Of a stretch of 34,104 nucleotides of DNA, positions 6,642-33,899 are shown piece by piece (the stretch's first letter is position 1; the number at the start of each line of letters is the position of its first letter). Origin of the DNA: a virus; the IMG/VR virus record IMGVR_UViG_3300037587_001035, positions 1-34,104 of that record. One strand, written 5' to 3'. The notes beneath the pieces are model-generated. The model was not told where the DNA came from. It made no database searches and worked only from the letters and a program-made list of their open reading frames with translations. The translations under genes were made by a program, and so were the position numbers.

Positions 6642-8504
6642 ATGGTAGCTGGCAAGGCTCGAAGATTAGGTAAAGACACCGGATTGAGTCAAAAGAGAAA
6701 TAAGTTTTCACTCTATGCACTCGGCCGACAGAATGACTCTCAAGTTGGAGCCGAGCAATTTTCCAGTCAAGAAGGATTCACTCCAATTAATCAAACTGGC
6801 CTACAAGACACATCTAAAGCTCTAGGAGATGGAAGTCAATTCGGAGGAGCAATCGGTTTTAAATTTAGATTATGTGAATTAGATTCCGACACTAGCACAG
6901 TGGACATTACTAAAGCCGTAGCAAGTGGCGATGTTTTTGACACAGCTCCAGGAGATTGTAGTGCGTTGATCACTGGCTCCGGAGGAGGGGCCATGATTTC
7001 TGATTTAGAATTTATTAATTTCCCAAAATGGCAAGGACATAGATTATCTATTTATCTTAATGACGGTCAAACAGTTACCGTCAAGCATACAGTCGGAGCA
7101 ACTATTTACGCAATCAAAACTCCCACTGAGGCTGACGTTGTTTTCACTACGGCCGAACAAGTAATTAGTTTCGCTTGGAGTGTTACACTCGGTCAATGGC
7201 TCCTCCTAACAAGTGCCGGAGGAGGAGGAGGAGCACAATGTCCGTTAATTTGCACAGAGAATGATCTTGGAAATATATCGGGAGTCGTTGATGTGGATTG
7301 GAGTATAGCCAATTTTCATAGAGGCGTGTTGACTGGCGATGTTACATTTAATTTGATTAATACACCTGGAGACGGAGACTGGCAAGATATCTGTCTCGAA
7401 GTTCAACAAGACGCTGTGGGAGGACACACCGTTTCATTTCAGCAACCTATGGCTAACGGCTTTATTCCTCAAACATTTCTCGGAGCTTTGCGATATACCT
7501 CATGGCAAATTTACGTTTATGAGGAGCCTGGAGGCACGGATATTTTTCATGGATTCGATAAGTCTGGATCAACTGGACCGGACGTTCCTGGCTCTGGAGG
7601 AGTATTTCAGGGATTCTCAGGTTATATCCAAGCAATACTTTCAAGTGATCAGCTAGCAGTAGCTCCCGGCCTACACATTGAATTTGATACTATTGTTAAA
7701 GCCGACACTCTGACCGTCTCTGCAAGTCCCGGTCAAGGTAGTGGGATCTTTAGTGGCTTTAGAGTTGGCCATGTCTACGAGTGTAATGTTTATGTAGCAA
7801 GCTTTGGATTAGCTGGCGTTCCTCCGGCTGAAATATCGGCAAAGTGGTTCGACATACAAGGAGGAGTTTTTATCGGCACTCATGCAAAAACGATCTCAAT
7901 GGATGATCCCAAGACGACAAACTTTCAGCATATCGGCACAGCTTATTTTGAGCCCACAATGTTAGGATCTTCTTTACTTTGTGAAATTATTTCTAACATC
8001 GGAGCTATTGGAATACATGACGGAGGATCAGCTTCTGATCCTCTTACGTTTGCAACTATCAAAGATTGTGGCGTGACCGAAGCTGTAATTAATCAACCGA
8101 TTCCGGCTCCAGAAGATATCATACTCGACATTAGAGAAATGACTTACCTTAATGTCTCACCGAATAGTAGTGCATTTAGATTTAGTAATTGGCAAGGAAA
8201 TCTTAATAATTCAACTGTCGATATATCTCAAAGAGTGTCACAGTCCGGAGTAATCAAGTCACTTATTATCAACGTTGATCAAAAAGGAGCTGGAGATATT
8301 AATTTTAACATGATGAAGAATGGTTCACCGTTCGGACCTACGTTTGTCTTGACAGCCGGAGCCGGGACGGGAGTTGTAGAATTTCCTGGCACTAATTTAT
8401 TTTGGGAGGTCGGAGATACTTTAGGATGGCGAACTACTGGAGGAGTCGGAGGACAACCGGGAGGCGACCAATGGAATATGACAATGGTAGTGTGGTGGAC
8501 GTGA
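6642..8504 (+). CDS. Tail fibre / receptor-binding protein, multidomain, 620 aa
   Basis: At least four beta modules can be seen. Residues about 60-195 end in a Gly run (GGGGG) after WLLLTSA. Residues about 205-310 hold a GDVTFNLIN module of the type common in tail fibres. Residues about 320-480 resemble a C1q/TNF-like jelly roll (GYIQAIL..., HIEFDTIV, a Tyr-rich strand, an AYFEPT strand). The last module (510-620) resembles the whole of the next protein. The basic N-terminus (KARRLGKDTG) may be the tail-attachment segment. The ATG directly follows the hub stop (TAAATG). Such an array after the hub normally determines host binding. Confidence 0.6.
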   Translation: MVAGKARRLGKDTGLSQKRNKFSLYALGRQNDSQVGAEQFSSQEGFTPINQTGLQDTSKALGDGSQFGGAIGFKFRLCELDSDTSTVDITKAVASGDVFDTAPGDCSALITGSGGGAMISDLEFINFPKWQGHRLSIYLNDGQTVTVKHTVGATIYAIKTPTEADVVFTTAEQVISFAWSVTLGQWLLLTSAGGGGGAQCPLICTENDLGNISGVVDVDWSIANFHRGVLTGDVTFNLINTPGDGDWQDICLEVQQDAVGGHTVSFQQPMANGFIPQTFLGALRYTSWQIYVYEEPGGTDIFHGFDKSGSTGPDVPGSGGVFQGFSGYIQAILSSDQLAVAPGLHIEFDTIVKADTLTVSASPGQGSGIFSGFRVGHVYECNVYVASFGLAGVPPAEISAKWFDIQGGVFIGTHAKTISMDDPKTTNFQHIGTAYFEPTMLGSSLLCEIISNIGAIGIHDGGSASDPLTFATIKDCGVTEAVINQPIPAPEDIILDIREMTYLNVSPNSSAFRFSNWQGNLNNSTVDISQRVSQSGVIKSLIINVDQKGAGDINFNMMKNGSPFGPTFVLTAGAGTGVVEFPGTNLFWEVGDTLGWRTTGGVGGQPGGDQWNMTMVVWWT

Positions 8505-10290: not shown

Positions 10291-10401
10291 ATCTAAACTC
10301 TCATGCCAGGGGCAATTTGAGCATAATTTCTCTCTATTATACCATTTTTCGTCAAAGGTATTTTTGAGACAATTTGGACATTTTGCCGTTTGATTTCTCA
10401 T
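10288..10401 (-). CDS. Zinc-ribbon microprotein, 37 aa
   Basis: Read on the - strand, a 37-codon frame starts with ATG at 10401 and ends in TAA at 10288-10290. The product has AKCPNCLKNTF and, 16 residues after that Cys pair, LCSNCPW. This is two CxxC knuckles spaced as in a zinc ribbon. Its ATG overlaps the TGA of the upstream - strand zinc protein (ATGA), so the two form an operon. The coupling and the clean four-Cys pattern make a real gene likely despite its length. Nucleic-acid or protein binding is inferred. Confidence 0.6.
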   Translation of the reverse strand: MRNQTAKCPNCLKNTFDEKWYNREKLCSNCPWHESLD

Positions 10402-10631
10402 TTTCTGCAAGTCCTCTTAAAATAATGTCTATTTCTATTGTGGTTATTACGAAAAATTTTACCACATCGAGAGCACGTTTTGTATTCCATGCTTAATTTT
10501 GTGACGGAGGATTTCTCCCATAATTCGTCACAGATAACACATTGGCAAGTGCCAAAACACGTCTGATGAACGCCTTTTTGACAACTTGAACATCTCACAC
10601 CGGAGGCGATTTCACATTCGTTTTGATTCAT
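10398..10631 (-). CDS. Zinc-finger regulator candidate, 77 aa
   Basis: The product has two metal sites. One is a ribbon with C14/C17 and C31/C34 (plus C25 and C29). The other is a C-terminal C2HC finger with C53, C56, H69 and C75 (C-x2-C-x12-H-x5-C), surrounded by Arg, Asn and Lys (NNHNRNRH). That is a plausible DNA-binding surface. Its start is 1 nt from a perfect inverted repeat that contains its TATA box. It is divergent from the ribbon-helix-helix gene at 10721 across only 89 bp. These features suggest a regulatory, possibly autoregulated protein governing early genes. The family is not recognised. Confidence 0.75.
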   Translation of the reverse strand: MNQNECEIASGVRCSSCQKGVHQTCFGTCQCVICDELWEKSSVTKLSMEYKTCSRCGKIFRNNHNRNRHYFKRTCRK

Positions 10632-10888: not shown

Positions 10889-11342
10889 GAAATATTATTG
10901 TTTTAATGAGACTTGCAAATTAGAGATAGCTTTCGATCAATCCATGAAAGCTGAATCTGGAAAGCTTATTCCTTTACAGCCAGGAACGAGAAATCCTCAT
11001 AAATGCGTTGAACAAAAAAAAATAGAAACTCCTCCAACTCCTCCAAAAATTCCGGATAATCCTCCAGGCTATTATGAACATCAACAAGTCGAAGGCCAAG
11101 AGCTTGAATATCCCAAATTTAACGACAAAGTAATCGAGGCCGAAGTTAAGAGAGTCTCTGTTTGGGCTCGACACGAAGCTAATTCGATTAATTTTCCAGA
11201 GAACTTTGACAAAAATTCAGCGACACATGACGAGCTAAGAGCTAGGCAAATTGACAGAAATGTAGATAAAAAGGACATGATGCGATACTTTTTTGAGGTA
11301 AAGTATGGTAAGAAAAAAAACTCAGTGGATAAGCTTCCATGA
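10845..11342 (+). CDS. Protein with N-terminal C-x4-C...H-x-C zinc site, about 165 aa
   Basis: The N-terminal domain contains YYCFNETCKLEIAFD, then SGKLIPLQPGT and NPHKC: two Cys, a 'SGK-x-IPL' loop, and a closing His/Cys. From memory, similar small zinc domains are frequent in Nitrososphaeria (thaumarchaeal) proteins; this is a weak host hint. A Pro-rich linker (about 65-85) precedes a charged C-terminal part. The start is uncertain. ATG at 10845 is given, but TTG 10863 or CTG 10872 (the latter giving a short N-terminus reading SKPGKKYYC after GAGG 9 nt upstream) are alternatives. It overlaps the ribbon-helix-helix gene by tens of bases. Function unknown. Confidence 0.6.
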   Translation: MRQSKRLLFLSKPGKKYYCFNETCKLEIAFDQSMKAESGKLIPLQPGTRNPHKCVEQKKIETPPTPPKIPDNPPGYYEHQQVEGQELEYPKFNDKVIEAEVKRVSVWARHEANSINFPENFDKNSATHDELRARQIDRNVDKKDMMRYFFEVKYGKKKNSVDKLP

Positions 11343-11802
11343 CGATACAAACGAGAAGTCGATTGTTCGTAATGTCCTCTCTCGTAGATTTGGCCTTCAT
11401 GCTCTCCAGGATGAGGTTTTATATTTTGACAAAGCAACTGGCCACTGTGTCGCAATTACAGAGGGCTATTGTTCTGGAGAGGAGATACTCAGAAAATATT
11501 TTGTTCACTATCCCGATCTTTTTTGTCCTCAAGTGGTCCCTCAGCTTGTTTGCGAGATTGACGGTGATGTGCATTGGCAAAACACAAAGGCTGTGCATAG
11601 AACTAATGCTCGAAATATTCACTATGAAAATGCGAAGTTACAATTTTTATGGCTCACCAGGGACGAGGTTTTCAAATTAGATGAACGAGAGCTCGTTAAG
11701 ATCATTACAAGTCGGACGGAAATTTTGCCCCGATTGCTCACTACAAAATCTAAAATCCTCAATAAGAATCGTAAAACAAAACAAAGTCAACACAAAGGCT
11801 GA
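11305..11802 (+). CDS. PD-(D/E)XK nuclease resembling DUF559/Vsr-type enzymes, 165 aa
   Basis: The core reads P70-D71 (YPDLFCP), then a strand with VCEIDGDVHW (E84, D86, H90), then an Arg/Asn-rich helix with R99, N101 and R103, and then FLWLTRDEV. This is the DUF559-like order: a Pro-Asp, then 'E-x-D-G-x-x-H', then 'R...N/R...' and a strand ending in an acidic turn. The lysine of a classical ExK is replaced by the D-G-D-V-H set, as is common in this family. It may act on viral DNA (resolution, packaging or repair) or on host DNA. The start is ATG, overlapping the upstream gene by 38 nt. The Lys-rich C-terminal tail would bind DNA. Confidence 0.65.
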   Translation: MVRKKTQWISFHDDTNEKSIVRNVLSRRFGLHALQDEVLYFDKATGHCVAITEGYCSGEEILRKYFVHYPDLFCPQVVPQLVCEIDGDVHWQNTKAVHRTNARNIHYENAKLQFLWLTRDEVFKLDERELVKIITSRTEILPRLLTTKSKILNKNRKTKQSQHKG

Positions 11803-13254: not shown

Positions 13255-13378
13255 ACGACTCCGAATCCTAACAATCGGTAAAGTCAAGTATGAATTTACC
13301 GAAGAAAACTTCAAGCAATTACAGCGTCAAGCCTTGAAACTTTGCCTTGGTCATATAGGCGAGGAGGACAATCTCTAA
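13247..13378 (+). CDS. Small hypothetical protein, 43 aa
   Basis: ATG 13247 lies 8 nt inside the previous gene. The TAA overlaps the next ATG (TAATG). The product has a strand pair (LRILTIGKVKYEF) followed by a helix (ENFKQLQRQALKLCLGHI). A strand-strand-helix microprotein could be a small DNA-binding or toxin/antitoxin-like fold, but nothing specific is seen. Confidence 0.45.
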   Translation: MTERLRILTIGKVKYEFTEENFKQLQRQALKLCLGHIGEEDNL

Positions 13379-13524
13379 TGAAGGGAGGGAGATGCTTGGC
13401 GTGTGGGGCTTATGCTCCGGACGCTAAGTCATGGTATGATGAGTATGGTTACGCTGTCAACTTTTGCTCTCAAAAATGTGCCGAGGCAAAAGTGCAATCT
13501 TGGGATGAGGAGGGAGACAACTAA
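13378..13524 (+). CDS. Zinc-finger microprotein (TRASH/MYM-like), 48 aa
   Basis: The product has CLACGAYAPD and, about 20 residues later, NFCSQKCAEA. C-x2-C followed by an aromatic segment and 'F-C-S-x-x-C' is the pattern of small treble-clef fingers of the TRASH/MYM type. The start at ATG 13378 (TAATG) is preferred over an upstream in-frame TTG. It is coupled on both sides. Confidence 0.65.
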   Translation: MKGGRCLACGAYAPDAKSWYDEYGYAVNFCSQKCAEAKVQSWDEEGDN

Positions 13525-13790
13525 TGACTAAGCCATATCTCCTCAATATTGTCGGCCGTGACGACTCAGTGGACGGAATCCAAAAAGACGGTTCTAATCG
13601 AATGAGAATTTTTCCTCGATATCTTGGTCACTACTCACTGAAAAATGTTGAGGGAAAATGGACTTTGCACAAAGTCGGCAAGAATGACTCTCACTGGATT
13701 TTTGTAAATCCTAACTACATGAAAAGACTCTTGGCCGGAGGAAAAATTTTAGTGGATGAGCATATCCTGGAGATGCAAAAAATTGAGTGA
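13524..13790 (+). CDS. Hypothetical protein, 88 aa
   Basis: ATG 13524 overlaps the previous TAA. The product is mixed alpha/beta: KPYLLNIVGRDD, a GNxMRIFPRYLGHYSL-like middle, KWTLHKVGKNDSHWIFV, and a C-terminal helix (KILVDEHILEMQKIE). No metal ligands. It is one of the few mid-sized, non-zinc genes of this run. Family not recognised. Confidence 0.55.
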   Translation: MTKPYLLNIVGRDDSVDGIQKDGSNRMRIFPRYLGHYSLKNVEGKWTLHKVGKNDSHWIFVNPNYMKRLLAGGKILVDEHILEMQKIE

Positions 13791-13887
13791 CGAAGCTGAC
13801 GGCCGACACTCCGGAGTTTGCCGAGGTTGTAAAAAATTTAGTAACTCTGTTAGTAATGATAACGGCTACTGTGGGGACTGTGATTAA
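13783..13887 (+). CDS. Zinc-ribbon microprotein, 34 aa, TTG start
   Basis: TTG 13783 begins a 34-codon frame with GVCRGCKK and, 12 residues after that Cys pair, GYCGDCD: a four-Cys zinc ribbon (C-x2-C-x13-C-x2-C). GGAG at 13769-13772 lies about 10 nt upstream. A longer frame starting GTG 13787 covers the same bases and would encode a membrane-like segment, but the ribbon pattern and the clean ATG of the following gene make this reading better. Confidence 0.55.
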   Translation: MSDEADGRHSGVCRGCKKFSNSVSNDNGYCGDCD

Positions 13888-13888
13888 A

Positions 13889-13996
13889 ATGAGAACAATA
13901 GATGAACGGATAATTAATTGCAAGAAATGTCAAGAGGGAGATGAAGGAATGTTTGTTTATTTTTGTGACAAACACTTTAGGGAGTTGTTAAAATGA
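13889..13996 (+). CDS. Zinc-knuckle microprotein, 35 aa
   Basis: ATG 13889 follows the previous TAA by 1 nt, and its TGA overlaps the next ATG (ATGA). The product has NCKKCQEGDEG and VYFCDKHF, giving C-x2-C...C-x2-H. This is a complete C3H metal site in 35 residues. Confidence 0.6.
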   Translation: MRTIDERIINCKKCQEGDEGMFVYFCDKHFRELLK

Positions 13997-14226
13997 CCGT
14001 AATATGTCCAAAATGCAAAACAGAATACAGCGACAGAATCTCCAATAACTGTTTTAACTGTTTGACTGAATTACCTCAAGAAAAAGAGTCGGTCACACCG
14101 ATTGATTCCTCTATTTTCGAGCAATTACATAGTGAGATAAACAACTCTTTTCTCACTAAAGACAGAATGAAATCTCGCAAAAAAATTCTGACTCGTAAAT
14201 TCAAAGCCGGAGATTTTGATAAATGA
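13993..14226 (+). CDS. Zinc-ribbon protein, 77 aa
   Basis: The N-terminal 30 residues are a classic zinc ribbon: VICPKCKTEY, then NNCFNCLTEL (C-x2-C-x11-C-x2-C). The rest is a helical tail with a Ser/Lys-rich segment (KDRMKSRKKILTRKF) suited to nucleic-acid binding. ATGA couples it to the genes on both sides. It may mimic or bind transcription or replication factors that use ribbons. Function inferred only. Confidence 0.65.
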   Translation: MTVICPKCKTEYSDRISNNCFNCLTELPQEKESVTPIDSSIFEQLHSEINNSFLTKDRMKSRKKILTRKFKAGDFDK

Positions 14227-14363
14227 ATACTAAAAAAGTCGTTGAGACAGTCGCTCAAGCTTACATGAAAGTTCACAAAAAAACTTGCCCTTACTGTTCA
14301 GACTTGGAGGCCAAAATTATTCAGCACGTTTTTGAAACTTTGAGGAGGAGTAAAGCTAAATGA
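14223..14363 (+). CDS. Helical microprotein with CxxC, 46 aa
   Basis: The start at ATG 14223 overlaps the upstream TGA. The product is a helix (KKVVETVAQAYMKVHK), a TCPYCSDLE knuckle and a second helix with His (KIIQHVFETLRR). H-x4-C-x2-C...H could form one zinc site, and CPYC alone could be a redox pair. The 3' end carries GAGGAGGAG, the ribosome-binding site for the next gene. Confidence 0.55.
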   Translation: MNTKKVVETVAQAYMKVHKKTCPYCSDLEAKIIQHVFETLRRSKAK

Positions 14364-14467
14364 TTCCTTGGTATTGTCCGACTTGCAAAATAAAGCACAG
14401 AAAAAAGCCAGTTTGTTTTTTCCTTGATCAAGAAAAATATTTCGAGTGGGTTAGGAGGAGAAAATGA
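14360..14467 (+). CDS. Zinc-knuckle microprotein, 35 aa
   Basis: ATG 14360 (ATGA). The product starts WYCPTCKIKHRKKPVC: C-x2-C-x3-H-x5-C, a compact knuckle. A helix with basic residues (EWVRRRK) follows. A strong ribosome-binding sequence (GAGGAGTAAAGCTAA before ATG) precedes it, and AGGAGGAG near its end serves the next gene. Confidence 0.6.
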   Translation: MIPWYCPTCKIKHRKKPVCFFLDQEKYFEWVRRRK

Positions 14468-14553
14468 TTAACGATAACGATTACAACGAGGCAATAGCTA
14501 GATGGAATAAAATCCTCAAAGCACTATTCAAAAAATGGGAGGAGGAGACTTGA
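14464..14553 (+). CDS. Helical microprotein, 29 aa
   Basis: ATG 14464 overlaps the previous TGA and has AGGAGGAG 4-11 nt upstream. The 29-residue product is one amphipathic helix (YNEAIARWNKILKALFKKW) with an acidic end. No metal ligands. Coupling on both sides is the main support. Confidence 0.45.
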   Translation: MINDNDYNEAIARWNKILKALFKKWEEET

Positions 14554-14657
14554 AACTTTGCTATGAGTGCGTTAATTACAATCATGTCGATTGTAGAGAA
14601 GGCAAGTTTGATCGATACAAGAATATTCAACACTGTGGATGCAAGCATAAAAAATGA
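14550..14657 (+). CDS. Zinc-finger microprotein, 35 aa, TTG start
   Basis: TTG 14550 overlaps the upstream TGA (TTGA) and follows GGAGGAGG by a few bases. The product has LCYECVNYNHVDC and, 16 residues later, HCGCKHKK. Cys and His are dense (five Cys, three His), enough for one or two zinc sites. It ends in the ATGA overlap of the next gene. Confidence 0.55.
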   Translation: MKLCYECVNYNHVDCREGKFDRYKNIQHCGCKHKK

Positions 14658-14833
14658 AACATATCTGTCCTAAATGTGGCAACGGTTGGAATTGTATTCA
14701 TCCAGAATTTTGTGACGTTGATAGTGTGGGCTTGACGTGTCCAATTTGCAACGCTGAGGAGCACGACTACAATCCTGATACGCATATCAAATCTCCTGGA
14801 GCTTTCAAAAGATGGAAGGAAAAAAATGTCTGA
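14654..14833 (+). CDS. Zinc-ribbon protein, 59 aa
   Basis: ATG 14654 (ATGA). The product has HICPKCGNGWNC, then EFCDVD, then LTCPICNAEEHD. Two CxxC knuckles with 20 residues between, plus extra Cys and His, give a ribbon that may bind two metals. The C-terminus is basic (FKRWKEK). Confidence 0.65.
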   Translation: MKHICPKCGNGWNCIHPEFCDVDSVGLTCPICNAEEHDYNPDTHIKSPGAFKRWKEKNV

Positions 14834-14972
14834 ATGGCATACAACAAAGCCACTGACAAAATTTGTAGAGTGTCCTCACTGTCAAGAGCTCGTTTTGGTC
14901 CATTGGGGCTCATTCTTAGGTTGTGGGAAAAAATGTCCAAATTGCAAAAAAGTTTTTCATAACTCCGATTAG
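14826..14972 (+). CDS. Zinc-ribbon protein, 48 aa
   Basis: ATG 14826 lies 8 nt inside the preceding gene. The product has VECPHCQELVLVHWG and KKCPNCKKVFH, a textbook ribbon with strands between the knuckles (C-x2-C-x16-C-x2-C). It ends in TAG, unlike most neighbours. Confidence 0.65.
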   Translation: MSEWHTTKPLTKFVECPHCQELVLVHWGSFLGCGKKCPNCKKVFHNSD

Positions 14973-14974
14973 AA

Positions 14975-15091
14975 ATGAAGGCATTTCCATTATTAGAAAA
15001 TAGGCTCTGTCAGTCTTGTTGTCCCTTTGAAGTCATGGGATTCCTCAGAGACAATCAAATAGTCTGTGATTACTGTCATGCCAAAAATTAA
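14975..15091 (+). CDS. Zinc-ribbon microprotein, 38 aa
   Basis: ATG 14975 starts 3 nt after the previous TAG. The product has RLCQSCCPFEV and, about 16 residues later, IVCDYCHAKN: two CxxC pairs with an extra Cys. It overlaps the methyltransferase start by 14 nt. Confidence 0.6.
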   Translation: MKAFPLLENRLCQSCCPFEVMGFLRDNQIVCDYCHAKN

Positions 15092-15746
15092 TAACCGTCC
15101 TGGAAATTCTAATTTTGTGGATTGGCCAGACAAAAAATACAAAATCATCTATGCAGATCCTCCGTGGCTCTACGGCAAATTTTCAAACACTGAGGGCTCC
15201 AGGCTCTACAACTACGATCCTAAATTCAAAATAACTCCTTATGATGGCATGAAGCTAAAAGATATCGTAGCTTTGCCAGTCAAGTCCATCGCTGAAAAAG
15301 ATTCAGTCCTTTGTTTGTGGGTAACTATGCCAATGCTCAAAGAGGTTATTGACGCAAAACTCATGGAAGCTTGGGGTTTTAGCTACAAAGTTGTCCTATT
15401 TACCTGGGTTAAACTGAATAGAAACAAGGGAGGTTACTTTACCGGGCTCGGAGGTTACACACGATCAAACGCTGAGCTTGTTCTAGTTGGAACGAGAGGC
15501 AAAGGAATCAAGGTTAAGAACAAAAAAATTTCTCAAATAATTGCCTCTCCCTTTACATCACACTCCAAAAAGCCTGATAGTGTGAGAGTCAAGATCGTTA
15601 AATTATTTGGAGACTTGCCAAGGATCGAGCTGTTCGCACGCACTCAGATCCATAATTGGGACACATGGGGCAACGACCAAAAGCTTAATTTGCAACCCCT
15701 TGAGAATTATTCCTTGGAGGATGCGAGTGATTCCAGAAGGAAATAA
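15078..15746 (+). CDS. MT-A70 family DNA adenine N6-methyltransferase, 222 aa
   Basis: The catalytic motif DPPW is at residues 27-30, preceded by the strand YKIIYA. Downstream, LWVTMPML, a YTRSNAELVLVGTRG strand-turn, and the HSKKPDSVR...IELFAR segment complete the MT-A70 fold. The family transfers a methyl group from S-adenosylmethionine to adenine N6. Phage and archaeal-virus copies modify genomic DNA, usually to evade host restriction. ATG 15078 is preferred to GTG 15066 because DPPW then sits at the usual distance from the N-terminus. No cognate restriction nuclease lies next to it. It is embedded in the microgene array, so probably early expressed. Confidence 0.85.
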   Translation: MPKINNRPGNSNFVDWPDKKYKIIYADPPWLYGKFSNTEGSRLYNYDPKFKITPYDGMKLKDIVALPVKSIAEKDSVLCLWVTMPMLKEVIDAKLMEAWGFSYKVVLFTWVKLNRNKGGYFTGLGGYTRSNAELVLVGTRGKGIKVKNKKISQIIASPFTSHSKKPDSVRVKIVKLFGDLPRIELFARTQIHNWDTWGNDQKLNLQPLENYSLEDASDSRRK

Positions 15747-16170
15747 CTACAAAGGCACGACTGTCGATGGACCACACTCACGAGCTGACGTTGAGGCTAT
15801 GCTTGAGAAACAAGGCGTTCATAATTTCGCCTGGAAAAGAGAAGATCCTGAGAATACCTATCTAATGTTTGAAAAAAAATTTAGAGCTATGACAAAATCT
15901 TTGTTCTACAAGGTCCAAGTGCCATTCGTTGAGAAATACAGTCCACAAAAACAACCAATCTATGACGAAAAAAGATCCTATCGATTCTTTTTCCATATCT
16001 TTAAGTCAATGCTACTCAATGAACAAATCGGCATGGACTTTGAAATGATTTTCACTAATTATCTAGTGATTGGCAAGCTACCGGACGGCTCTCCAATGAC
16101 AATTCAAGATAAAGTTTCTCTTGCACTAATGGATAACAAAAATCCGGCACTGGAGTTTAACGAGAAATGA
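15721..16170 (+). CDS. Conserved-looking phage hypothetical protein, 149 aa
   Basis: The product has a helix with DVEAMLEKQGVHNFAW, a charged strand region (TYLMFEKKFRAM), and a helical C-terminal part with YRFFFHIFKSMLLNEQIG and TNYLVIGKLPDGSPM. The pattern 'helix ending in a G, aromatic strand, then R-x-x-F/W helix, then a loop with L-P-D-G' resembles an uncharacterised phage family I recall. I cannot name it. ATG 15721 is chosen because an upstream ATG at 15607 would overlap the methyltransferase extensively. GGAGG lies immediately upstream. ATGA couples it to the next gene. Confidence 0.6.
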   Translation: MRVIPEGNNYKGTTVDGPHSRADVEAMLEKQGVHNFAWKREDPENTYLMFEKKFRAMTKSLFYKVQVPFVEKYSPQKQPIYDEKRSYRFFFHIFKSMLLNEQIGMDFEMIFTNYLVIGKLPDGSPMTIQDKVSLALMDNKNPALEFNEK

Positions 16171-16397
16171 AGTTAATCACTAGAACATCACACCTAATCC
16201 AGTTATCCGATAAAGTAATGAATCTCGCTATGAAAGCTTACATCACTTCTGGCAATCAAAAGACTGTCCTCAAAGTCCGTCAGATGCAAGACATTTTTCT
16301 CGACAACTTAAAGAAAATGACAGATCCTAAAACAGTAGCTAAGTTGGATCAAGAGGCTATGTTTAATTTTTACAAGGCAAAGGCGTTAAAGAAATGA
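16167..16397 (+). CDS. Helical protein, 76 aa
   Basis: ATGA start. An all-helical, basic product: LIQLSDKVMNLAMKAYITSG, KTVLKVRQMQDIFLDNLKKM, then a C-terminal helix. No metal ligands or catalytic motif. It is probably a small adaptor or regulator. Confidence 0.55.
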   Translation: MKLITRTSHLIQLSDKVMNLAMKAYITSGNQKTVLKVRQMQDIFLDNLKKMTDPKTVAKLDQEAMFNFYKAKALKK

Positions 16398-16564
16398 TAC
16401 ATCTCGATATCAATCTCAAAATAGCTAATCTAATCAAAGAACGTCATAAAGCACTCCTCAATGATATTTTAGAATATAATAAAATTGAGCTAGATGCAAC
16501 GGACATGATTTCTGAAAAGGATTTTCTCGAAGGGCTCGCTAAATTATTGGAGGTCCAACTTTGA
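16394..16564 (+). CDS. Helical protein, 56 aa
   Basis: ATG 16394 overlaps the previous TGA. The product is a two-helix protein (NLKIANLIKERHKALLNDIL; EKDFLEGLAKLLEVQL). Near its 3' end GGAGG supplies the ribosome-binding site for the TTG start of the next gene, with which its stop overlaps (TTGA). Family unknown. Confidence 0.5.
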   Translation: MIHLDINLKIANLIKERHKALLNDILEYNKIELDATDMISEKDFLEGLAKLLEVQL

Positions 16565-16857
16565 TTCTCACTAAACTAATTTATCCCAAATATTACAGAG
16601 TTTATCGCATACCACAAACGTCAGAAATAGATTTTGAAACAATGAAAAAAAAGAACTATACCGAAGAAGCTATCGAATTTTTTGAGATACACAATAACAA
16701 TTACGCCTCTGGATTCACAGAAACAATCGACATAACACTCAATCGATGGCTTGAGGAGAACGAGGAGAAAATATCTATCGTTGATATCAAATATCAAGGA
16801 TATGCTGACGACAACTGCAATATGTCGGCCTTGATAATGTATAGGAAATTGGCATGA
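16561..16857 (+). CDS. Hypothetical protein, 98 aa, TTG start
   Basis: TTG 16561 overlaps the upstream TGA and has GGAGG about 9 nt before it, which decides the start. The product begins with LTKLIYPKYYRVYRIP, has a helix (EEAIEFFEIHNNN), and ends with a strand (ISIVDIKYQGY) and an MSALIMYRK strand. Mixed alpha/beta. No recognisable motif. Confidence 0.55.
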   Translation: MILTKLIYPKYYRVYRIPQTSEIDFETMKKKNYTEEAIEFFEIHNNNYASGFTETIDITLNRWLEENEEKISIVDIKYQGYADDNCNMSALIMYRKLA

Positions 16858-16958
16858 CTCCTAAGTATTGCATTAATTGTAATTGTAAAAACAAAAAGAC
16901 GGCCATGACGTGCTCTCAGTGTGGCTCTAACGCCTTCGCCTGGAAGAAAATGAAATGA
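16854..16958 (+). CDS. Zinc-ribbon microprotein, 34 aa
   Basis: ATG 16854 (ATGA). The product has KYCINCNCKNKK and, 8 residues on, MTCSQCGSNAFAW. This is a perfect short ribbon like those of ribosomal and Rpb9-type ribbons. Basic residues flank both knuckles. Coupled to the next gene by ATGA. Confidence 0.65.
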   Translation: MTPKYCINCNCKNKKTAMTCSQCGSNAFAWKKMK

Positions 16959-17158
16959 AAAGATTTTGGGCCGACTATACAAGAGTTACAAAAAAACCAA
17001 TTAGAGGCATGAGAGCATTAAGCAAAAACGGCAACGTGTTAGAGTTTAACGGAAAAAAATGGGAGCGTTTTATTATCGCTCGGTATGCTCAAGTGGCCGT
17101 CCTTAGCACTGGAAAACTTTACAAGTATAACGGCACACGATGGAAGATAATGAAATGA
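16955..17158 (+). CDS. Small basic beta protein, 67 aa
   Basis: ATG 16955 (ATGA). The product has two similar halves: NVLEFNGKKWERF and KLYKYNGTRWKIM, each a strand, an N-G turn and a K/R-W strand. This internal repeat is of the kind seen in small beta-propeller- or SH3-like repeats. No metal site. Nucleic-acid binding is possible given the charge. Confidence 0.55.
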   Translation: MKRFWADYTRVTKKPIRGMRALSKNGNVLEFNGKKWERFIIARYAQVAVLSTGKLYKYNGTRWKIMK

Positions 17159-17313
17159 CTCCTAAAATGCAAAGTAGATTAGAGAGATTCAAGTTAAAGA
17201 TGAGTAACCCCATGTATTATCTCAGACAGTCAAATTGTGCAAGCACGCAAGATTGTCCCTTTTGTGGAGGCACAGCCGGAGATCACGATGAGGATTGCGA
17301 GCTTGACAATTAA
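17155..17313 (+). CDS. Small zinc-binding protein, 52 aa
   Basis: ATG 17155 (ATGA). The N-terminal half is a basic helix (QSRLERFKLKM). The C-terminal half has SNCASTQDCPFCGG and, with H and C further on, DHDEDCELD: four to five Cys plus a His, probably one zinc. The last bases overlap the start of the next gene. Confidence 0.5.
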   Translation: MTPKMQSRLERFKLKMSNPMYYLRQSNCASTQDCPFCGGTAGDHDEDCELDN

Positions 17314-17760: not shown

Positions 17761-18537
17761 TTGGAGATATTGCAAAAGGGAGCACTTCCTCAGACGGAGA
17801 CTCACGTTAAACGCTCAAAACAATTATTCGATACTGGAGAAATCAAGCTCTCTCTGAAATGGGTTGAGGTTGTCCCAAGGCCGACACTCGAAGAAATGGA
17901 TCACATGACGCAATCCATTAAAAAATACGGACTAAAGAATCCGGTGACAGTTGATCAAAATTTAATGTTAATTGACGGCTACTCTCGTTATAAAATTTGT
18001 AAAAGAACTAACACTCCTCTTGAATATGAAGTCAGATACTTTGCTGACGATAAAGCTCGGAGAGACTTTGTTTTAATTTCAAACGTTGACAGACGGCACT
18101 TGAAGGCTTTTGACAGAGTGAGATTATTTCGCTATATCCTAATTGAGGAGCAAGCCGAAGCTAAAAAGAGGCAAGCACACAATATCGAAATTGGCCGAGC
18201 ACGTCCGAGGCCAACTGGCGACAGAGTAACAAAGCACGAAAATTTATCAATGCACAGATTCGCTAAAAAGATTGGAGTTGGAGAAGGGACAGCAAAGAGA
18301 GCTCTTGTTATTTTAGACGAAGGCTCTCCAAAAGAGCTCACTATGGTCAAGAAGGGCATTATCTCAATTACAACGATGTATCAAACAATTCAATCCAGAA
18401 AACGAAGAATGGATGAGAGACTCATGCCTTGCAAGATTACAATCTATAACAAATACACTGAGAAAACAACTGTTATCGAAAAAAAATTCACTAGGGATTT
18501 ATTGGATCAAACTCTGGCCTACTTGAGAAGAACATGA
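17761..18537 (+). CDS. ParB-like DNA-binding protein, 258 aa
   Basis: Residues 30-110 form a ParB/Sulfiredoxin-type domain: a strand KLSLKWVEVV, the helix MTQSIKKYGL, a strand NPVTV, and IDGYSRYKI with the DGYSRY signature (72-77). Residues about 165-215 are a helix-turn-helix (FAKKIGVGEGTAKRALVIL), then KGIISITTMYQTI, the standard ParB order. In plasmids and phages ParB binds centromere-like repeats; many stand-alone virus copies act as regulators. No ParA ATPase is visible. The repeats 1 kb downstream (19357-19682) are an obvious candidate site. The start is TTG and thus uncertain. ATGA couples it to the next gene. Confidence 0.8.
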   Translation: MEILQKGALPQTETHVKRSKQLFDTGEIKLSLKWVEVVPRPTLEEMDHMTQSIKKYGLKNPVTVDQNLMLIDGYSRYKICKRTNTPLEYEVRYFADDKARRDFVLISNVDRRHLKAFDRVRLFRYILIEEQAEAKKRQAHNIEIGRARPRPTGDRVTKHENLSMHRFAKKIGVGEGTAKRALVILDEGSPKELTMVKKGIISITTMYQTIQSRKRRMDERLMPCKITIYNKYTEKTTVIEKKFTRDLLDQTLAYLRRT

Positions 18538-19192: not shown

Positions 19193-19285
19193 ATGTATGG
19201 CTGTCCCTTCTGCAAAGAGCCCTTCAATACTATCTTAGAGACTAAAAAGCACTGTGAGGCTAAGCATAAGCTTTGGCTCAAATAA
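19193..19285 (+). CDS. C2H2 zinc-finger microprotein, 30 aa
   Basis: ATG 19193 to TAA 19285 encodes a complete classical C2H2 finger in 30 residues: C4-x2-C7-x12-H-x4-H (GCPFCKEPFNTIL, then KKHCEAKH). It stands alone, 24 nt after the array, with no strong TATA element visible (ACTTAATT at 19162-19169 is 24-31 nt upstream). A free-standing single finger can bind DNA weakly or a protein partner. It lies directly before the noncoding repeat region, so it could act there. Confidence 0.6.
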   Translation: MYGCPFCKEPFNTILETKKHCEAKHKLWLK

Positions 19286-19356
19286 CACTGACTCAATCAT
19301 CTTAAATCCATATTCTCTCATTTACAGCAATCAGAGGAGTCATTTTCGATTCACAT

Positions 19357-19682
19357 CGCAATACCTCCTTATTGTAATAATTGGCTCCTCTGCATATTAC
19401 TCTTAAATAAAACTAATAATCATTATAGCCTGGAGGTATTGCTCTGTCGAGGAGTCTGATTATTGGTCATGCTTTGATTAGTCTGAATGTATCTGAGAAT
19501 TGGGGCAATCCCTCCAATCTATACTCTTTATTTCACAATCTTTTAACAAGAGACTAGTAATCTAATCACGGAGGTATTGTGTTACGAGCCGTGAATGGGT
19601 TAGTAAGTAATCTCCTATTCAGACAACTCGGCTCAGTATATGCCCCAATTTGTCATTAGAGCATTAGAATCACAATACCTCC
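19357..19682. repeat. Five CAATACCTCC-type repeats in alternating orientation (candidate packaging site or origin)
   Basis: GCAATACCTCC occurs on + at 19358-19368. Its complement GGAGGTATTGC is at 19432-19442. A variant GCAATCCCTCC is at 19505-19515 (+). GGAGGTATTGTG is at 19570-19581 (complement of CACAATACCTCC), and CACAATACCTCC is at 19671-19682 (+). Orientations alternate and steps are about 75, 73, 65 and 101 bp. GAGGAGTC-type words (19334-19341, 19449-19456; complement CTCCTCTG at 19385-19392) form a second set. The 476-nt interval 19286-19761 holds no gene on either strand that I could support. Being directly upstream of the small terminase it may be the packaging recognition region, or a ParB-bound origin. 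Confidence 0.75.
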
Positions 19683-19712
19683 AATTTACGTCCAAATTAG
19701 GTCCAAATTAGA
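19680..19712 (+). repeat. Triple 11-bp repeat beside the terminase promoter
   Basis: TCCAATTTACG (19680-19690), TCCAAATTAGG (19691-19701) and TCCAAATTAGA (19702-19712) follow one another without gap. The period of 11 bp is one helical turn, so a protein could bind three times on one DNA face. The first copy overlaps the last CACAATACCTCC repeat. The array ends just before the class II promoter box. Confidence 0.65.
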
Positions 19713-19713
19713 C

Positions 19714-19727
19714 TAGAAAACTATACG
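19714..19727 (+). promoter_or_regulatory. Class II promoter box for the terminase operon
   Basis: TAGAAAACTATACG is identical to 22103-22116 before the 22135 gene. The CTATAC core is 36-41 nt before the ATG at 19762, longer than in the other copy (20-25 nt), implying a short leader or a second TATA element (TAAATACG at 19730-19737). Confidence 0.55.
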
Positions 19728-19761
19728 GCTAAATACGAATAGAGCGTTATTCTATATCTGC

Positions 19762-20211
19762 ATGACCACGCAATATGAGACGAAGCTTAGACGTGATAAA
19801 GTCTCTGAATGTTTATCCAAGGGCCTTCATAGTCCGGCATTAATAGTTAAAAAATTAGAAAAAGATTTCAAGATTCCTCCAGGGGACCATCAAAAATTTT
19901 ACAAAAGAATTGACAACGATCTCAGATGGATGCGTAAAGATTCTATCCAGTGGCTCCAAGGCCACACGCTAGACGGCTATGTTTATGAGACACGCATGGC
20001 CATCTCGCAATTACGAGACATTGAATCTGAGTTACAAGAGATGAGAGAAAAACAAAAAGAGGGAGGAGAAATACCTGATCGATTAAAAATTATGGCCGAG
20101 CTTAAAGATACAATCAATCTTCGATGGGTAATGCAAGGAGACGGACCTACACTAATGAATCTTAATTTGAAACATGGCAAGGACACACAAAACTCCAAAC
20201 AAACTAAATGA
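19762..20211 (+). CDS. Probable terminase small subunit, 149 aa
   Basis: The N-terminus has a helix-turn-helix-like region (KVSECLSKGLHSPALIVKKL), followed by a long coiled-coil region (ISQLRDIESELQEMREKQKE) and a C-terminal Lys/Asn-rich segment. DNA-binding N-terminus plus oligomerising middle is the arrangement of small terminases. The gene precedes and overlaps the large terminase by 38 nt. It lies just downstream of the repeat region that it may bind. There is no diagnostic signature, so the call rests on layout and position. Confidence 0.7.
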   Translation: MTTQYETKLRRDKVSECLSKGLHSPALIVKKLEKDFKIPPGDHQKFYKRIDNDLRWMRKDSIQWLQGHTLDGYVYETRMAISQLRDIESELQEMREKQKEGGEIPDRLKIMAELKDTINLRWVMQGDGPTLMNLNLKHGKDTQNSKQTK

Positions 20212-21955
20212 CAAACTAGCTGAGAGAGTGGACCTTGAGCCACTTCCGGATCTCCCTATCAATACATTAGATTGGGTTGAATTAGCTAGGCCAACGGTCG
20301 GTTTTACTGTTAGAAATTGGGAGCTTACACCGTTTTGGATTCCAATCTACGAGGACAATCATCCAAACATTATGATAGTAGCTGGCCGTCAAACGTTTAA
20401 GACAACGTTTTGCACTGACTTAGTGGCTAACTATGCGACAACGAGAAATCGATGCGAAGTTTGTTATGTTACAGACAACGAACCTCACCTTTCAGCTTTC
20501 AGCAAACAAAGGCTCCGTATCGAAACATTCTTACAAAATGACGTATTGCGAGATTATTTACGACACGACAGAGCTAACATTGGAGAATTTTCATTACGAA
20601 ACGACTCAGCTATTTATCTCGTAACTGACGAAGGACAATACAAAAAAGTCGAAGGTAAATCTTTGCAACTCTTAATGTTAGATGAGGCACAGTATCAAGA
20701 TGTTCAATTCCTCTCGAAGGCCATGTATGCACTATTTCAAACTCATGGCCGTTTCTATATGCTTGGCATTGGAGGAGAGGCCGGATCAGAATATCATAAG
20801 AAATGGGAAAAGACTGATCAAAGAGAGTGGATTTACACGGATAAATTTTGGTATGATAAGATTGAGCGAGATGCTCAAGGCCGAGTAATTAATGATGAGG
20901 ATGAACTCAAAGTTATTTTAAATGGTAAGTGGATATCACAAAAGCCAGAAAATACTCAGTTCAGAGGCTATCATTTACCTCAAACAATTTTCCCAATGAT
21001 TCCAAGAACTATTGAGGACGCACAGCTTCATAACATTAATCCAGAGTTTTCGATTGAATGGCAAGAGAGACATTCGCCATTGAGTGTTTATACTTCTCAC
21101 TGTATTGGAGAATTTTACCAAGCCGAACGAAGGCCAATTAGTCCGGCTATGGTCAGTGCGTGCTATAACAATTACATGACACTTTTAACTCCTGACGAAG
21201 TTGTTTGGTTGAAGGCAATCTTTGGCAACCAAATCCGAGTTACAATGGGAGTTGATTTTGGTAGTGGACCAACTGCAAGCAAAACCGTTATTACAATTCT
21301 CGTTCACTGGAGAAAATCTGGACGTTATCAAATTGTGTGGATCGAGCCACGACCTCAAGAACATCAACTTGATCAAGCACGGTATATCGCAGAACTTGGA
21401 GCGTCTTACCATGTGGATTATGCAGTTGGAGACTTGGGCTACGGAGCAATCCAAGTTAAGGTGATTCAAGACGGAGGACGTGACAGCCATGATCATAAAT
21501 TTATTGGACTTGGCAAACGAATCTTTGTCGGTTGTAGAACGATTGGCGATGAAACAAAACCCGAAATGGAATACCGACAAGAGACAGATGAGCACGGCAC
21601 TGAGCTCGGAAGATTACAAATTGATAAGACGACAACTATTCAAAATTTTATCGACTTCATTGGCACTTACGTTTCTCATCCCACACGGCCCGAAGTTGAG
21701 GAGCTTAAACGAACTAAACTAATCATACCTCACAAACTAGACTATGAATGTGATTTCTTAATGGATGATCTTTGTTCAACGACACGCAAAGACATTGAGG
21801 AGGAGATCGATAAGACTGTCGAAGATCCAAGACAAAAAGCAAGAAAAGAATTTAATCATCCGAAGGATTCCATGATGAGTCTTATCTATGCTTTAATAGC
21901 TGACTGGAATTATGACAGTGGGAGGTTTGTGTTACATGGACGAAAAGGACGATAA
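20174..21955 (+). CDS. terL: Terminase large subunit (packaging ATPase and nuclease), 593 aa
   Basis: Walker A is GRQTFKTT at residues 71-78 and Walker B is LLMLDEAQ at 166-173 (D170, E171). The coupling segment is GIGGEAGSE (about 198-206). The C-terminal RNase H-like nuclease has GVDFGSG (D361), AVGDLGYG (D420) and HPKDSMM (D565), the three metal-binding acids. All essential parts are present and in order. The protein cuts concatemers and drives DNA into the prohead through the portal. The N-terminal ~45 residues are variable. The start at ATG 20174 overlaps the small subunit gene. This is one of the surest calls in the window. Confidence 0.93.
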   Translation: MARTHKTPNKLNDKLAERVDLEPLPDLPINTLDWVELARPTVGFTVRNWELTPFWIPIYEDNHPNIMIVAGRQTFKTTFCTDLVANYATTRNRCEVCYVTDNEPHLSAFSKQRLRIETFLQNDVLRDYLRHDRANIGEFSLRNDSAIYLVTDEGQYKKVEGKSLQLLMLDEAQYQDVQFLSKAMYALFQTHGRFYMLGIGGEAGSEYHKKWEKTDQREWIYTDKFWYDKIERDAQGRVINDEDELKVILNGKWISQKPENTQFRGYHLPQTIFPMIPRTIEDAQLHNINPEFSIEWQERHSPLSVYTSHCIGEFYQAERRPISPAMVSACYNNYMTLLTPDEVVWLKAIFGNQIRVTMGVDFGSGPTASKTVITILVHWRKSGRYQIVWIEPRPQEHQLDQARYIAELGASYHVDYAVGDLGYGAIQVKVIQDGGRDSHDHKFIGLGKRIFVGCRTIGDETKPEMEYRQETDEHGTELGRLQIDKTTTIQNFIDFIGTYVSHPTRPEVEELKRTKLIIPHKLDYECDFLMDDLCSTTRKDIEEEIDKTVEDPRQKARKEFNHPKDSMMSLIYALIADWNYDSGRFVLHGRKGR

Positions 21956-22134: not shown

Positions 22135-22350
22135 ATGAAATGCCTCAATCGTGATTGTGGGAAATCGTGCCGGACTCCAAAAGCTCCGAATTGGAAGCTG
22201 TGGCAATTTTGTTATCTCTGTGCAATTAAACTCTCTAAAACCCCAGGCACGCCTCAAGCCGAATATTACGCTGATAAACACAGACACGGCACTGGAGGGA
22301 CTTGGATGGAAGAAACTAAATGTGTGCCTATGGCTTGGATTCAAGTCTAA
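22135..22350 (+). CDS. Zinc-ribbon protein, 71 aa
   Basis: The product has KCLNRDCGKSC (C-x4-C-x3-C), and LWQFCYLCAIKL with the second knuckle, giving a four-Cys ribbon of about 30 residues; a C-terminal Cys is further on. It has its own class II promoter and lies between the terminase and portal operons. Its TAA is immediately followed by the class I promoter box of the portal gene. Role unknown; the isolated position with a private promoter suggests regulation. Confidence 0.65.
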   Translation: MKCLNRDCGKSCRTPKAPNWKLWQFCYLCAIKLSKTPGTPQAEYYADKHRHGTGGTWMEETKCVPMAWIQV

Positions 22351-33665: not shown

Positions 33666-33899
33666 ATGGGAAAACTAACTTGTCAACACTGTGGGGCCGT
33701 AGCAAAAGCAGATACTCGCAAAGACGCTGATGATCTAATTGACCACGCAAGAGGTAAAATGATCGGCCGTCCTTGTTCGGGCTTAGAGTCCGACTTGAGA
33801 TGGACTGGAGCTAACGACTCTCCAAGAGTTGAGAAGGTAGAAACAGACACAGAAGTCAAAAGTCCAAAGAAAACAAACAAAAAATCCAAAAGGGGTTAA
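33666..33899 (+). CDS. Zinc-finger protein, 77 aa
   Basis: The N-terminal part has LTCQHCGAVAKA (C6, C9), a His at 27 and a Cys at 37: a C2HC site. The C-terminal third is Lys/Thr rich (SPKKTNKKSKRG), a probable nucleic-acid-binding tail. It follows the major capsid gene by 9 nt in the same transcript and ends before a T-rich terminator. Among structural genes a zinc protein is unusual; it may bind packaged DNA or act in late control. Confidence 0.65.
   Translation: MGKLTCQHCGAVAKADTRKDADDLIDHARGKMIGRPCSGLESDLRWTGANDSPRVEKVETDTEVKSPKKTNKKSKRG

Follow-up and report, generated by a model that had tools for sequence, protein, structure and literature searches.

A dense run of coupled zinc-motif microgenes in a virus most likely infecting ammonia-oxidising archaea

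Tailed viruses of haloarchaea encode many small proteins with the motif Cys-x-x-Cys (CxxC), mostly outside the module for virion assembly (PMC7230728, PMC7911831). Serpecor1 and Hardycor2, for example, have 23 and 21 CxxC genes, respectively; most encode fewer than 100 amino acids (aa) and none lies in the assembly region from terL to Rnr (PMC7230728). These ‘CxxC motif’ microproteins, a descriptive class, are the closest known kind to the subject of this report, and the relationship is one of likeness only. Here we describe an array of very short, coupled genes for predicted zinc-ribbon proteins (zinc microgenes) at positions 13378–17313 of the IMG/VR virus record IMGVR_UViG_3300037587_001035. 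The window analysed is the whole record of 34,104 bases, most likely from a head-tailed virus of ammonia-oxidising archaea. The array shares with HF1/HF2, Serpecor1, Hardycor2 and Hardycor1 the small size (<100 aa) of its CxxC proteins and their location mostly outside the assembly module, and HF2 itself has a tandem overlapping CxxC trio at 7316–7781. It differs from the haloviruses in host phylum, in its higher density and in a run of nine CxxC genes, and Pfam, PHROGs and NCBIfam revealed no halovirus family shared with it. The kind itself is known from haloviruses; new here are the host group, the gene families, how densely they occur and the long run of coupled genes.

Other small zinc proteins offer partial parallels. 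The one-domain zinc finger microproteins of Haloferax volcanii (PMC6562870, PMC10716476) and Brz of Halobacterium (PMC2253796) are likewise very small, with a single zinc domain predicted from two CxxC-type motifs, but they are cellular genes with no demonstrated sequence relation to the array. Regulatory or phenotypic roles have been demonstrated for such small archaeal zinc proteins (Brz, PMC2253796; Haloferax, PMC6562870). AFV1p06 of an archaeal filamentous virus (PMC3541406) is also a small viral zinc protein, with demonstrated DNA binding, but it has a classical C2H2-like fold, whereas most array proteins are ribbons or knuckles of C4 or C3H type. A possible working model comes from TraR and phage lambda Orf73 (PMC9239242), small C4 zinc proteins of mobile elements that directly reprogramme host transcription; these are DksA-family binders of the secondary channel of bacterial RNA polymerase, and no relation to the array was detected. 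The putative spindle-shaped viruses of ammonia-oxidising archaea (PMC10866085) share the host group but are an unrelated virus type, and no such array appears in the text searched. In the papers searched, which deal with tailed viruses of archaea and with viruses of soil nitrifiers (PMC8651126, PMC11849493), zinc is absent from the main text; an earlier mention elsewhere is possible.

Between 13378 and 17313, ten plus-strand open reading frames (ORFs) of 28–90 aa carry at least two Cys/His knuckles, and six of them have two CxxC motifs. In 500 dinucleotide shuffles of the same interval, with ORFs counted over both strands, frames with at least two knuckles numbered 0.88 ± 0.87 (maximum 5) and those with two CxxC motifs 0.034 ± 0.18 (maximum 1). 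At least one CxxC is present in each of nine consecutive genes (13783–15091; P = 0.001 against shuffled gene order, in a hand-made model of 36 genes). The less specific count of adjacent CxxC pairs was not significant (P = 0.12), nor was the clustering of strict, two-knuckle genes within the accessory region (P = 0.26). Cys accounts for 7.3% of residues in 13378–15091 against 0.75% in the structural genes, a tenfold rise, and the zinc microgenes lie mainly outside the structural and virion assembly module, the exceptions being 22135 (flanked by the terminase and portal genes) and 33666 (adjacent to the capsid gene). A first-pass annotation of this DNA had reported at least ten such multi-knuckle frames and called the set unusual, and both statements hold. 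Its gene list needs some adjustment: 14360 combines one CxxC with an isolated Cys/His, the Cys/His motifs of 17155 and 13889 are C2HC/C3H-like and not double CxxC, the gene placed at 14550 has an additional upstream ATG at 14535, and 14223 joins the array as a one-CxxC gene. Of the outlying examples it gave, two (10288 and 10398) are encoded on the minus strand and two others (24316 and 33666) have a single CxxC each.

The array frames are very probably genes, because they exceed the shuffled expectation, are coupled, follow Shine–Dalgarno-like (SD-like) sites and use codons as genes of this virus do; 14826, with the lowest codon score of the array, is the weakest case. As had been proposed, most are coupled: eight of the 11 genes originally listed overlap the preceding gene, five of them by exactly 4 nucleotides (nt), and over the whole array an exact 4-nt overlap occurs at 11 of 22 junctions (Table 1). 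An SD-like site precedes 59% of array starts and 25% of other ATGs. Codon usage outside Cys codons resembles that of the large genes of the virus; with Cys codons removed, no tested microgene falls below the 92nd percentile of 144 shadow ORFs (range 92nd–100th), and most are above the 96th.

Placement of the virus relied on its large terminase, which has 33 relatives in viral contigs. A further ten occur among cellular genomes sampled at one per species, all ten thaumarchaeal (Nitrosopumilus, Nitrosarchaeum, Marine Group I and a lineage labelled Thaumarchaeota archaeon 13_1_20CM), and for this reason we regard the window as most likely derived from a head-tailed virus of ammonia-oxidising archaea. 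Both terminase and capsid are related to viruses or genome-borne terminases of Thaumarchaeota.

Similar coupled zinc runs recur in related viruses: the class is conserved, and so are some of the genes individually. In G038, one of these viruses, all but one of the seven genes that precede the small terminase gene encode CxxC, and overlaps of 1 or 4 nt are found at five of six junctions; L006 has a comparable arrangement upstream of its terminase, and short coupled zinc runs are found in G014, G039, G040, G041 and G043. Of 100 double-CxxC ORFs counted across 17 records, the window included, 81 share the strand of the terminase. Clustering yielded 49 multi-locus zinc microgene families, about 40 after obvious antisense shadows had been removed by eye. 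Double-CxxC ORFs number 2.4 per 10 kb in the window and 1.1–5.9 in the related records, G036 excepted. The highest density belongs to the 57-kb G027 (L060–L062; 34 ORFs); G019, at 1.1, is not clearly above the shuffled expectation, and G036, a record covering mostly the structural part, has none. By comparison, HF2 has 0.8 per 10 kb (49 kb tested), Bacillus phage Andromeda 0.4, T4 none in 40 kb, and two host contigs 0.5–0.8, a contrast that is only indicative because the control viruses number three.

Homologues among the loci examined were found for four array genes (13783, 14654, 14975 and 17155). Those of 13783 (L013, L014, L047, L048 and L078/L100) share 53–65% aa identity and keep the four Cys of the window protein; they come from five records, several of which place the gene downstream of the terminase. 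The C-terminal motif CPxCGGxxGDHDxDC of 17155 is common to G003 and G019. The protein of 14654 is 85% identical over 54 codons to its counterpart in G038 (L098:674-835; non-synonymous divergence (pN) 0.084, synonymous divergence (pS) 0.81), with all six Cys retained, whereas the two terminases are 56.5% identical. The 14975 protein, its Cys also kept, is 84% identical in L006 and 75% in G038/L098, against 65% and 56.5% for the terminases. Both families evolve more slowly than the terminase, with pN of 0.08–0.16 and pS of 0.65–0.86, counts that are noisy on alignments of 30–60 codons and include saturated synonymous sites; because of this saturation we do not rely on pN/pS ratios for these pairs. 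Even so, the alignments give a clear indication of strong purifying selection on the 14654 and 14975 families. The first-pass annotation had named unconserved Cys codons, or a ratio of non-synonymous to synonymous rates (dN/dS) near 1, as grounds for abandoning its proposal, and the testable families show neither.

The saturation just described weighs against reading the array as a set of real accessory genes, as do two other points. Seven genes (13378, 13889, 13993, 14223, 14360, 14535 and 14826) have no homologue in any locus examined, so their case is made by codon usage and context. The closest relative by capsid, G036 (97% capsid protein identity), is a fragment whose aligned part ends inside the terminase, leaving the array outside its coverage. 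Scans with the ParB-like and methyltransferase proteins, and with a concatenated query of six array proteins, found no array relatives, and those with the 14654 and 14975 families returned only contigs already known.

On balance, we favour, with a little better than even confidence, the view that the array is an operon of accessory genes with fast turnover, whose products are binding modules stabilised by zinc and would serve in host takeover and regulation. It would be a block of real, co-transcribed accessory genes, probably expressed early from a single transcript, each translated into a single small protein with a structural zinc ion at the centre of its fold, as the Cys/His spacing suggests. 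These proteins would act as independent modules docking on host nucleic acids or on the host machines of transcription, translation, replication or defence, which they would redirect or block after infection. The set would be built by gain, loss and shuffling of genes, with single members under strong purifying selection. No replication or transcription enzyme was recognised among the accessory proteins scanned; a virus lacking recognised machinery of its own would depend on host machines, which is compatible with a repertoire of small proteins that bind them.

Three alternatives to such an operon, namely anti-defence, ribbon mimicry and autoregulation, are not told apart by the sequence. We think it unlikely that the array is an anti-defence island in which most microproteins inhibit host restriction, CRISPR or other defence and the methyltransferase is self-protecting. 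Small, fast-turnover accessory genes do stand in a row with an MT-A70 methyltransferase gene immediately downstream, and archaeal viruses group anti-defence genes under early promoters (PMC11065993). In relatives, a zinc family encoded upstream of the terminase (L008:858-1031, L009:388-564 and L098:850-1017) weakly resembles Lar-like restriction alleviation proteins (best E value 3.5e-6), but this is a generic ribbon match, rivalled by anti-TRAP and other ribbons, and no array protein of the window has one. Moreover, two array families are better conserved than the terminase, which is not typical of genes in an arms race. For the original suggestion of an anti-defence island, the sole leads are the Lar-like match in relatives and the nearby methyltransferase gene, with no match in the array itself.

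Equally doubtful, in our estimation, is that the proteins are mimics of host zinc ribbons (TFB, TFS, RpoP, ribosomal L40e and others) competing for docking sites. None reached a Pfam, PHROG or NCBIfam cut-off, and their best named matches are weak and to generic ribbons. The top NCBIfam match of 16854 is L40e and RpoP is among those of 14826, but both score 18 bits, far under the cut-offs of 54 and 84, respectively, so that membership of these families is not indicated. A sequence search of solved structures returned generic zinc matches only. In seven thaumarchaeal genomes, the 14654 family, the only array family searched there, has no convincing homologue (best E value 0.14), and its predicted model is poor (predicted local distance difference test (pLDDT) 52). 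These results do not demonstrate the inhibition or mimicry of host proteins that the first-pass annotation had offered as a possibility. The mimic idea stays alive because a zinc family of related viruses that is absent from the window, A6, has a clear homologue in all seven genomes, with up to 15 matches in each. The best host copy is near-invariant between genomes (MTCKGIC...GQRRCQIC...WCPCCGYRLRTKPR) and, in three of the loci checked, lies near a gene named by eye as nascent polypeptide-associated complex-like; A6 itself has no Pfam, PHROG or NCBIfam match. By homology, A6 shows that at least one zinc microgene family is common to host and virus.

It is rather improbable that the proteins are DNA- or RNA-binding regulators of the virus’s own genes. 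In phage Mu, the zinc protein Com activates translation of a DNA modification gene, and the placement of 14826, which ends 105 nt before the methyltransferase start with one gene between them, resembles this arrangement. The 14826 protein also matches phrog_6417 (‘translational regulator’), which may correspond to phage Mu Com, but the match (E value 0.0015) falls short of any safe threshold and many ribbons match about equally weakly. The last alternative, that these are chance or shadow frames without function, fits their shortness and the lack of homologues for most of them in the loci examined, but it is highly implausible: shuffles, codon usage, coupling, purifying selection and recurrence all oppose it, and 13783, 14654, 14975 and 17155 already contradict it.

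The array sits in the accessory region, encloses the MT-A70 methyltransferase gene and is followed by the ParB-like gene. Other structural genes comprise a putative portal, tail-like genes, a capsid protein assigned by conservation and position, and a putative head protease (weak phrog_595 match, E value 2e-4).

Table 1. Positions of the array genes and of other features mentioned in the text.
Feature	Position	Strand	Junction with preceding gene	Remarks
Source, IMG/VR virus record	whole window (34,104 bases)			
Zinc microgene, 48 aa, CxxC...FCSxxC	13378..13524	+	1-nt overlap	SD-like GGAGG upstream; codon usage without Cys at 99th percentile of shadow ORFs
Zinc microgene, 34 aa, CxxC...CxxC	13783..13887	+	8-nt overlap	TTG start (ORF opens at 13756); homologues
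Zinc microgene, 35 aa, CxxC...CxxH	13889..13996	+	1-nt gap	Codon usage without Cys at 98th percentile
Zinc microgene, 77 aa, N-terminal C4 ribbon and basic tail	13993..14226	+	4-nt overlap	Sub-threshold zinc-ribbon matches
Microgene, 46 aa, one CPYC	14223..14363	+	4-nt overlap	Codon usage without Cys at 98th percentile
Microgene, 35 aa, one CPTC and single Cys/His	14360..14467	+	4-nt overlap	SD-like GGAGGAG upstream
Zinc microgene, 40 aa, CxxC...C...CxC	14535..14657	+	67-nt gap	Codon usage without Cys at 99th percentile
Zinc microgene, 59 aa, six Cys, ribbon and conserved EEHDYNPDTHIKSPGAF tail	14654..14833	+	4-nt overlap	Homologue in G038
Zinc microgene, 48 aa, C4 ribbon	14826..14972	+	8-nt overlap	Sub-threshold Pfam zinc-ribbon, PHROG ‘translational regulator’ and RpoP matches
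Zinc microgene, 38 aa, CxxCC...CxxCH	14975..15091	+	2-nt gap	Homologues in L006, G038/L098
Zinc microgene, 34 aa, C4 ribbon	16854..16958	+	4-nt overlap	Zn_Ribbon_1 2e-4 and L40e 0.0015, both below cut-off
Zinc microgene, 52 aa, CPxCGGxxGDHDxDC	17155..17313	+	4-nt overlap	C-terminal motif common with G003 (L045) and G019 (L053)
MT-A70 type DNA adenine methyltransferase	15078..15746	+		Beside array genes; PF05063, E value 5e-24; PADLOC MTase_II, E value 7e-59
ParB-like gene	17761..18537	+		3′ of array; phrog_12047, E value 4e-13
Large terminase	20174..21955	+		Used for placing the virus; phrog_675, E value 9e-30
Outlying zinc ORF, 40 aa	10288..10410	-		Sequence only
Outlying zinc gene, 77 aa, with C2H2-like finger	10398..10631	-		Weak relative L055:14922-15014; sub-threshold zf-C2H2
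Outlying zinc gene, 90 aa	11681..11953	+		Homologues in L006, L055
Outlying C2H2-like microgene, 30 aa	19193..19285	+		Sub-threshold C2H2 matches
Terminase-adjacent zinc protein family, CxxC...NWxxWQxCYxCA...HGTGG	22135..22350	+		Cluster of 49 members
Conserved single-CxxC gene after major capsid gene	33666..33899	+		Homologues adjoin the capsid gene in many relatives
A6 viral members (related viruses)	L061:15583-15786, L062:2414-2644, L062:7788-8024, L105:12583-13152			Host loci L112–L117

Beyond the array, the most widespread zinc family is that of 22135, whose cluster spans 40 loci, diverged CxxC relatives included. It is virus-specific, occupies the position between the terminase and portal genes in most of the viruses that carry it, and has a dN/dS of 0.13–0.30 where dS is unsaturated, with all six Cys retained. 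The family has no known-family match, and searches of PDB and BFVD with its model, predicted with moderate confidence (pLDDT 82), gave no significant fold match. One related virus carries four tandem members or relatives of it (L076:2275-2889). For the array of the window, recent tandem duplication was ruled out as an origin, the best zinc-protein pair reaching an E value of only 0.16. The 33666 protein (CxxCGAxAEA...IDHARGxxIGRPC), whose gene immediately follows that of the major capsid protein in most relatives, is possibly a virion or assembly protein.

Elsewhere in the window, a 165-aa protein at 11305–11802 has, by eye, the look of a small endonuclease (EIDGDVHW... with a charged motif downstream) and relatives in L045 and L100; it has no Pfam, PHROG or PADLOC match. 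A gap of about 476 nt (19285–19762) 5′ of the small terminase gene contains a repeated element, CAATACCTCC or GGAGGTATTG, in both orientations, and might serve in regulation or packaging.

Ammonia-oxidising archaea drive nitrification, and to our knowledge almost nothing is known of how viruses take them over. We suggest tentatively, and at less than even confidence, that their tailed viruses may hold a modular zinc microprotein cassette: coupled ribbon genes of 30–80 aa in dozens of virus-specific families, each directed against a different conserved host component, which together would form a general takeover toolkit left unannotated by standard gene calling. Annotation that filters genes by length would overlook a large part of the accessory genes in these viruses. 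The approximately 40 recurring zinc families, at least two of them under stronger constraint than the terminase, provide a short list of small, easily made proteins for testing against a known host group.

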